This document shows positions 17,498-19,042 of a stretch of DNA of 64,000 nt, one piece after another; position 1 is the first letter of the stretch, and each line of letters begins with the position of its first letter. The notes below the pieces were generated by a model. That model was not told the DNA's origin and did no database searches. It saw nothing but the letters and a program-made list of their open reading frames with translations. This DNA is from Marvania coccoides (taxonomy: Eukaryota; Chlorophyta; Trebouxiophyceae; Chlorellales; Chlorellaceae): contig OY978102.1 of the NCBI GenBank assembly GCA_963854735.1, forward strand, positions 1,178,001 to 1,242,000, read 5' to 3'. The translations under genes and the position numbers were made by a program.

Positions 17498-17948
17498 ATG
17501 GGAAAAACACTCGAGTTCCTTGCGTTCACGACTCTCAGCGGCATCAGCGGCGCAGTATCGGCAGCATGCTCAAAGTCGGCCGGGCAGCAGCACGCCCTTG
17601 GGGCGGCACTGCTTTACGCTTTCGTGGTGGCGGTGAGAACAGTCGACTCCCCACAACCAGCACAATCCCTGCCCAAGACTAACAATATTTACTTTATTTT
17701 GTGGTGTGCAGCTCAGCGTCTTAACTATTTCTCTCAACAGCGCGGCCATGCGGCGGACCGCCTCTCTGCAAGCGGCGGCCGCTGCAGTGGGCTGCAACGC
17801 GCTGTTCAGCGGGCTGCTGGGGTGGGCGGTGTGGGGGGAGTCCCTGGCGCCGCGGTGGTGGGCCGGTATTGCCTGCCTGACAACTGGAGTGGCGCTAATG
17901 CAGCCCAAGCTACTGACCGAAGAAGAAAGGAAGAAAAAACCAGAGTAA
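17498..17948 (+). CDS. TMEM42-like small membrane protein (EamA-like fold)
   Basis: Two exons, 17498..17632 and 17712..17948, joined in phase 0, give 123 residues. About four hydrophobic segments are seen: FLAFTTLSGISGAVSAAC, LGAALLYAFVVALSVLTISLN, VGCNALFSGLLGWAVWGE and WWAGIACLTTGVAL. The CNA..S..LG..VWGES..WW.GI pattern resembles the half-EamA (drug/metabolite transporter) TMEM42 family; no substrate is known. The stop TAA shares its last A with the ATG of the next gene (TAATG). The 79-base intron contains no stop in the first exon's frame, so retaining it opens a fusion into TruA. A small stand-alone gene is the simplest model, but a shared transcript is hard to avoid. Confidence 0.65.
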
Positions 17949-19042
17949 TGGCTGTCTTCCCTTGGCGTGCCGCAAGGGCGTTGAGACGAAATTTCGCTGC
18001 CAGCTGCGAAATGGGGGGGCAGCAGCCGTTGGTGCCGCCTTTCAAGTACATTGCGATGCTGGCGTACGACGGCACGCACTACCGGGGCTTCCAGCTGCAG
18101 GGCGCGACGCAGCGGGGGCAGACCGTGCAAGGCGCGCTGGAGAAGGCGCTAGTGCATTATCTGGCGCTGCCCAGGGAAGCGCTGGTAGTGCAGGGCGCGG
18201 GGCGGACGGACACTGGGGTGCATGCCCGGGGCCAAGCGGTGCAATTCTTTTCCGGAAGAAAGCTCGAAAATCCCGACGACCCGAAAGATCTGAGCCGCGC
18301 CGCAATAGCGCTCAACTCGCTGCTACCAGAAGCCATCCGCGTGCTGCGCGTGCTGCGGGTCCCGTTGGACTACAACGTGCGATTCACCTGGGGTAAAATC
18401 TACACGTACGACATTCATCTTTCTTCGGTCCCCGATCCCTTTGTATCGAGGTATCGCCACGCCCCGCGCAACCCCACAGCGCTGGACCTCCATGCCCTGG
18501 CAGCCGCACTAGCCACCTTCAAAGGCACCCACGACTTCACAGTGTTTTCCAGCCGCCCTAAGGATGGCAGTCTGCGCACGCCGGTGAGAACAATACGAAA
18601 GTTTCAGCCGGTGGAAATCGAGGGGGGGTTGCGCCTGGTGGTGGAGGGCGACGGGTTTATGTACAAGCAGGTGCGGCACATGGTGGGAGCGGCCCTGGCG
18701 GCGGCTGCCGGGCGAATATCTGTTGCGGACATTAAGAAAGCGGTGGACAGCGGAGCGCCGTTCTCTCGCCCGAATGCCTACAAAGTGGCTGATCCCCGGG
18801 GGCTGTGCTTGGACACCGTGTTTCTGTTGGACATTCCAGAGGACCCAGAGGTGCTGATGTTTGGAGAGCAGGGGGCGGTGTTGAGGCTGCGGCGGAGTGA
18901 TAGCAGCAGCAGCATGCAGCAGCAGCAGCAGCAGCAGCAGCAGCAGCAGCAGCAGCAGCAGCAGCAGCAGCAGCAGCAGCAGCAGCAGCAGCAGCAGCAG
19001 CAGCAGCAGCAGCAGCAGCAGCAGCAGCGAAAGTGGGTCTGA
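17948..19042 (+). CDS. tRNA pseudouridine synthase, TruA family
   Basis: Single exon of 364 residues. TruA enzymes turn uridines of the tRNA anticodon arm (38-40) into pseudouridine. Seen: YDGTHYRGFQLQ, the catalytic motif GAGRTDTGVHARGQ with its invariant Asp, ALNSLLP, NVRFTWGKIYTY, GTHDFTVFSS and GDGFMYKQVRHMVGA. The N-terminus (MAVFPWRAARALRRNF) is basic and hydroxyl-poor and could target mitochondrion or plastid; a second start at 18010 is possible. The C-terminus ends in a tract of 37 glutamines encoded only by CAG, then RKWV and the stop. The start codon overlaps the stop of the TMEM42-like gene by one base. Confidence 0.92.
   Translation: MAVFPWRAARALRRNFAASCEMGGQQPLVPPFKYIAMLAYDGTHYRGFQLQGATQRGQTVQGALEKALVHYLALPREALVVQGAGRTDTGVHARGQAVQFFSGRKLENPDDPKDLSRAAIALNSLLPEAIRVLRVLRVPLDYNVRFTWGKIYTYDIHLSSVPDPFVSRYRHAPRNPTALDLHALAAALATFKGTHDFTVFSSRPKDGSLRTPVRTIRKFQPVEIEGGLRLVVEGDGFMYKQVRHMVGAALAAAAGRISVADIKKAVDSGAPFSRPNAYKVADPRGLCLDTVFLLDIPEDPEVLMFGEQGAVLRLRRSDSSSSMQQQQQQQQQQQQQQQQQQQQQQQQQQQQQQQQQQQQQRKWV
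18904..19027 (+). repeat. AGC/CAG trinucleotide repeat, coding polyglutamine
   Basis: Four AGC codons (Ser), then ATG, then 37 uninterrupted CAG codons at 18917-19027. The register of the repeat changes at a single T (18915). Pure, long and therefore probably unstable in length. Confidence 0.97.

Follow-up and report, generated by a model that had tools for sequence, protein, structure and literature searches.

A one-base stop-start overlap between a small membrane-protein ORF and a TruA pseudouridine synthase gene: a proposed nuclear bicistron in the green alga Marvania coccoides

Results

Organization of the locus

The window analysed here is a 64,000-nucleotide stretch of contig OY978102.1 of Marvania coccoides, and all coordinates refer to it unless a different place is named. 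On the plus strand a small spliced ORF (ORF1) and a gene for a TruA tRNA pseudouridine synthase (ORF2) meet in the pentanucleotide TAATG at 17946–17950, which can be read directly from the sequence and in which the last A of the ORF1 stop codon TAA is the first base of the TruA ATG, a spacing of -1 nt; the preliminary description of a spliced TMEM42-like ORF sharing this base with TruA is thus confirmed at these positions. ORF1 has a 135 nt first exon (17498–17632), a 79 nt intron (17633–17711; GTGAGAAC...GTGTGCAG, GTGAGA...TGCAG), and a 237 nt second exon that includes the stop codon (17712–17948), giving 372 nt of coding sequence as against 1095 nt in ORF2 (17948–19042). The upstream neighbour is a divergent gene, with a DNA polymerase alpha/epsilon subunit B domain in a frame at 15176–17017 and a first exon, assigned by eye, that extends to 17261. 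The 236-bp gap between this gene and ORF1 contains a plus-strand TATA-like sequence at 17406–17412, identified as a consensus match only, and the downstream neighbour is a convergent NUDIX frame at 19156–19425.

The preliminary description also held that there is no room for a promoter or poly(A) site between the two ORFs, which is correct for the inter-ORF gap, but such signals could sit within the ORFs themselves. TGTAA occurs 65 times in the window against an expectation of 64.8, and without such enrichment its absence between the ORFs tells little. A promoter scan used a bacterial consensus and carries no weight for this locus. We also note a candidate upstream ORF of 12 codons (17460–17498, plus strand), seen in sequence only, whose TGA overlaps the ORF1 ATG; in the segment 17460–17500 (MPQTHNIKFLRI) the resulting TGATG forms a second successive stop-start overlap. 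A codon-score scan for tight coding pairs over 264 kb (the window and 200 kb of the same contig) gave 22 candidates, of which the ORF1-TruA pair alone has a spacing of -1 and none a spacing of -4; seven of the 21 others were translated, and several of them, by eye, resembled adjacent exons of a single gene.

The two predicted proteins

Spliced ORF1 encodes 123 residues from its two exons with an EamA-like pattern. Its Pfam EamA match has an E value of 1.4e-5, but at 25.9 bits it falls short of the curated threshold of 28.2; in a single BLASTP comparison it matches the EamA-bearing protein P0121 (E 2e-12) with an alignment that crosses the exon junction. Because the EamA score is below the cut-off, we retain the suffix in EamA/TMEM42-like in spite of the P0121 match; the name TMEM42 is a label carried over from the preliminary description. 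The ORF1 query finds a single place in the genome, this locus, with exon 2 at 99% identity, and exon 2 has its highest codon score in the ORF1 frame (12.3), followed by the TruA frame (1.2) and the third frame (-29.3).

The 364-residue ORF2 product matches PF01416 (E 1.5e-28, 99.8 bits, cut-off 23.3) and TIGR00071 (E 4.9e-41, 140.9 bits, cut-off 142.85), and the conserved Asp of its GRTD motif (D88), which we take to be the catalytic residue of TruA, is invariant in 15 of 15 aligned rows. PF01416 has two further places in the genome besides this locus. Organelle-targeting peptides are often basic and free of acidic residues, and the TruA N-terminus (MAVFPWRAARALRRNFAAS), which is basic and has no acidic residues, resembles such a peptide in composition; initiation at the next in-frame ATG (18011–18013), which lies ahead of the conserved core, would drop it. 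A profile search of proteins yielded no named relative of this TruA branch among the best 120 of 844 matches, and a search of viral contigs for TruA gave one distant, uninformative match (34% identical). Near the 3' end of the gene there are approximately 42 AGC/CAG triplets (18902–19028), which in the annotated frame encode poly-Gln ending in RKWV and in the neighbouring frame poly-Ser ending in SESGSDEEEDAENSN, a tail closer to those of relatives, which are acidic (SDEE, SSDD), and reached by a frame change at the start of the tract. Such a change could be a sequence error or real variation, with which the sequence is equally compatible.

Retention of the ORF1 intron

The 79-base intron is open, as had been described, and reading 17498–19042 without splicing does give a single frame of 514 residues. 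However, the further suggestion that splicing could choose between a fusion and two separate proteins is not supported. The 514-residue product comprises ORF1 residues 1–45, a different-frame reading of the intron and exon 2, and then TruA; it has no EamA match and has one hydrophobic window versus two in spliced ORF1. Given the codon scores of exon 2 noted above, it is best regarded as half of ORF1 joined to TruA through out-of-frame sequence. Synonymous re-draws leave the TruA frame through exon 2 open in 25% of cases, and shuffling the intron leaves that segment open in 26%, a joint chance of about 6–7%, so the open frame is unremarkable. Regulated use of this isoform, or of an alternative acceptor at 17740 that would leave 478 residues in an equally open frame, therefore seems extremely improbable to us, the product having lost both the EamA match and the second half of ORF1. 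GCAG closes all six introns that were read with boundaries by eye, whereas CCAG and ATAG close two other likely introns in the window, and the acceptor at 17740 (ACAG) is thus not dismissed by its sequence.

Recurrence of the pair in other green algae

The TruA query matched a protein of Edaphochlamys debaryana that combines an EamA with a TruA domain, and a search with this protein was used to gather further green-algal TruA models. Eleven of these (P0017, P0121–P0124, P0128, P0132, P0133, P0135, P0136, and P0144) have all or part of an ORF1 homologue in frame ahead of TruA. Linkage in relatives was read from protein sequences, without their DNA, and for models lacking an in-frame homologue we used a hidden-frame test, in which the best match to an ORF1 profile is sought over all codon choices in a shifted frame and compared with 40 shuffles per row. 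The window and nine in-frame models supplied the profile and therefore match it by construction; P0010–P0012, P0124, P0125, P0138, P0139, and P0143 did not contribute to it. Of 53 rows, 13 were dropped because the N-terminus was shorter than 30 residues or the motif was missing, and 40 were tested; P0135 and P0136 were removed under the motif rule, and their place among the in-frame models rests on their own sequences.

At offset 1, eight rows are positive and none of their shuffles reaches them. One is the window itself (z 9.5), a circular positive control only, and the other seven are the metagenomic P0010–P0012 (z 9.0–9.2), P0125 of Chlamydomonas reinhardtii (CHLRE_13g591501v5; z 13.0), and P0138, P0139, and P0143 of Volvox (z 14.3–15.4), the last two both from V. 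africanus. The offset is identical to that of the window in all seven, and a hidden ORF1 appears to be present ahead of TruA in these ORFs and models. All other rows have offset-1 z values of at most 2.0, and offset-2 values are at most 2.5. In the unshifted reading P0139 (z 2.8) and P0149 (z 2.9) are each reached by 0 of 40 shuffles, a weak signal on which neither protein was counted as linked. In P0125, P0138, P0139, and P0143 roughly the first 95 residues are apparently a wrong-frame reading of the membrane-protein ORF, and P0010–P0012 are TruA ORFs that lack a Met in the interval separating the hidden ORF1 from the TruA core.

The conserved adjacency in related algae that the preliminary description named as a check is therefore found, with the ORF1 homologue upstream of TruA in the 11 in-frame models and the seven hidden-frame rows, and this recurrence indicates that the adjacency is not due to chance. 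The test reveals no hidden ORF1 in the window's closest TruA relatives (P0001, P0002, and P0004–P0008); their ORFs start 40–106 residues ahead of the TruA core, and any ORF1 would thus lie outside them. A TruA tree unites the window, P0001–P0008, and P0010–P0012 in one group of 12 rows with support of 100/96, and since linked rows occur both in this group and among Chlorophyceae, the linkage is probably old. We note that the close sisters C. incerta, C. schloesseri, and C. reinhardtii have a mixture of in-frame and shifted models, which suggests gene-model trouble rather than rapid change.

The constrained frame in the overlap

Where relatives share the overlap of the two frames, amino-acid differences were sorted by the codon position that a single base change requires, position 1 of the TruA frame being the wobble base of ORF1; the compared pairs are not independent. 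Between P0010 and P0011 the ratio of position 1 to position 2 differences is 19:7 in the overlap and 21:23 in the TruA body, with 20:6 and 19:24 for P0010/P0012 and 5:1 and 10:13 for P0011/P0012. The contrast is weak in the Volvox pairs (14:6, 16:6, and 8:4 in the overlap versus 6:5, 6:4, and 4:3 in the body) and between C. reinhardtii and Volvox (26:12 and 25:16 versus 18:10 and 17:11). Residue identity is lower in the overlap than in the body in seven of eight pairs (0.61 vs 0.77; 0.40 vs 0.81), P0011/P0012 being the exception (0.92 vs 0.90). These comparisons give moderate support for ORF1 as the constrained frame.

Start codons

Judged by the general -3/+4 rule rather than a matrix for this genome, the ORF1 start has a T at -3, and the TruA start has a G at -3 and a G at +4. 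Between them are three AUGs, at 17566 (in the TruA frame), 17748, and 17898, whose -3 positions hold A, G, and C, respectively, a purine in two of the three. From the first of these (17566–17568) the spliced mRNA is open into TruA, and ribosomes slipping past the ORF1 AUG could start there and produce TruA with 101 additional residues. The pentanucleotide TGGGA, the 18S-binding core of the viral termination-reinitiation (TURBS) motif, is absent near the ORF1 stop and occurs within ORF1 only at 17499, at its start. Of the features of a viral-type TURBS, the stop-start overlap is present as TAATG and the UGGGA-type motif upstream of the stop is not.

Published bicistrons in the same genome

Green-algal nuclear bicistrons named by Duenas et al. 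2025 (PMC11892635) include CDC26-TTM3, TOM22-SDHAF3, OST4-FAM32A, and REX1S-REX1B, and we searched the genome with the second partner of each. Three of the four are collinear, as read at one of two CYTH places (L009), one of two FAM32A places (L030), and one of three LYR places (L032). CDC26-TTM3 (L009, 1495–2300, minus strand, G000:C1) has a gap of -4 nt with an ATGA stop-start overlap (CAATGACT) that sets its two ORFs in the frame relation also seen at the TAATG pair, and the gaps in OST4-FAM32A and TOM22-SDHAF3 are 9 nt and 46 nt. CDC26, TTM3, TOM22, FAM32A, and SDHAF3 pass their Pfam cut-offs and OST4 falls below (22.5 vs 25). In all three pairs ORF1 is spliced, as it is ahead of TruA, and the AUGs preceding ORF2 number 0, 0, and 2, versus three at the TruA locus. 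No ORF1 partner was seen by eye alongside REX1B (L035), and a PET100 search, without a match here or in its control genomes, is uninformative. Together with the TruA relatives, the collinear pairs point to a green affinity of this genome.

Discussion

We propose that ORF1 and TruA probably constitute a single nuclear bicistronic gene of the green-algal kind, producing separate proteins, with TruA translated mainly by leaky scanning. One spliced mRNA, probably starting within the 236 bp that separate ORF1 from the divergent gene, would bear both ORFs; the ORF1 membrane protein and TruA would be made separately from it, with TruA reached mainly by ribosomes that skip the weak ORF1 start, perhaps assisted by reinitiation at the overlapping AUG. 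A two-ORF transcript, as first put forward in the preliminary description, is favoured by the recurrent linkage, the three collinear published bicistrons, and the lack of any gap; the shared mRNA, its promoter, and the mode of TruA initiation are what we infer from the sequence. Counting against a bicistron are the three intervening AUGs, the REX1S-REX1B pair that was not seen by eye, the in-frame fusion models of Chlorophyceae, and the closest TruA relatives, in which the test shows no hidden ORF1.

Ribosomes could arrive at the second ORF in more than one way. Leaky scanning is the mechanism described for the published loci, tested in vivo by altering the ORF1 start (Duenas et al. 2025, PMC11892635), and the weak ORF1 start followed by a stronger TruA start fits that signature. 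The one-base overlap would also allow reinitiation in place, which is reported for the UAAUG of influenza B. Leaky scanning thus has the best outside support and reinitiation the better local anatomy, and the sequence alone does not decide among these and initiation at an AUG within ORF1. A doubtful extension is a relay in which ribosomes terminate and reinitiate twice, at the TGATG of the upstream ORF and then at the TAATG of ORF1, such that TruA output would be tied to ORF1 translation. Were this so, then together with the ATGA of CDC26-TTM3 it would make overlap coupling, and not leaky scanning alone, a working mode of this alga.

Several other arrangements could account for the overlap. 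TruA may be expressed from its own transcript starting inside ORF1 or its intron, with the overlap a mere product of compaction among tightly packed genes; the region is indeed compact, with divergent and convergent neighbours, but compaction alone does not necessarily give recurrent linkage in other green algae, and with three published bicistrons collinear in the same genome we consider a separate transcript unlikely. If TruA were instead started at the AUG at 17566, it would acquire a long N-terminal extension and the two ORFs would overlap over most of ORF1. That AUG has an A at -3, and after splicing its frame runs uninterrupted into TruA; models of C. reinhardtii and Volvox begin likewise, and P0010–P0012 lack a Met in the stretch from the hidden ORF1 to the core. 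However, synonymous re-draws keep this stretch open in 20% of cases, the P0010/P0011 and P0010/P0012 differences fall on the ORF1 wobble position (the contrast being weak in the volvocine pairs), and the codon score favours ORF1, so that initiation here seems to us quite improbable. An in-frame fusion made by splicing out the TAA with a different intron, after the pattern of the Chlorophyceae gene models, is very unlikely: although 11 green-algal models are in frame and an intron at 17945–18003 would keep the frame here, its donor (GTAATG) is unlike the GTRNGN of the six introns read with boundaries by eye, and the conflicting models in C. incerta, C. schloesseri, and C. reinhardtii indicate that the fusions may be annotation artefacts. 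The in-frame models nonetheless suggest that a fusion of ORF1 to TruA is possible in Chlorophyceae.

The bicistronic arrangement that we favour resembles the published green-algal cases (PMC11892635) in having two same-strand ORFs each with its own start and stop, a short first ORF with a weak start, a longer second ORF, and long-kept linkage. It differs in its spacing of -1 nt, compared with published medians of 183 nt in C. reinhardtii and 40 nt in A. protothecoides, and in having more AUGs ahead of ORF2 than the control pairs. The pair may already figure in the published locus lists of Duenas et al. 2025. Titles of the TMEM42 papers among the matches listed include none on algae, and a literature search for bicistronic pseudouridine synthase genes in Chlamydomonas gave one unrelated paper, neither of which establishes the pair as unpublished. 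The M1/BM2 junction of influenza B segment 7 is the same pentanucleotide, UAAUG, with a base common to stop and start, although the viral system is reported to need a stretch upstream of the stop (PMC3035654), and TGGGA within ORF1 is here confined to 17499. Overlapping bacterial and archaeal pairs (ATGA and TGATG) have spacings of -4 and -1 nt, as do the two pairs here (PMC6728339, PMC10666635); the genes in this alga are nuclear and spliced, and the initiation machinery differs. The Chlorophyceae fusion models (Edaphochlamys HYH03_008995, Pleodorina, and C. schloesseri) contain the same two families in the same order but as one protein with a linker, whereas a stop codon separates them here.

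The ORF1-TruA pair is thus a proposed, and apparently long-kept, addition to the nuclear bicistrons of green algae. The hidden-frame matches suggest that CHLRE_13g591501v5 and the Volvox models conceal a membrane-protein ORF by translating it in a frame that is not its own. The presence of two stop-start overlaps in one genome offers a natural test of leaky scanning versus reinitiation, and the pairing of a membrane protein with an enzyme of tRNA modification, perhaps as a fusion in Chlorophyceae, hints that the two are functionally linked.
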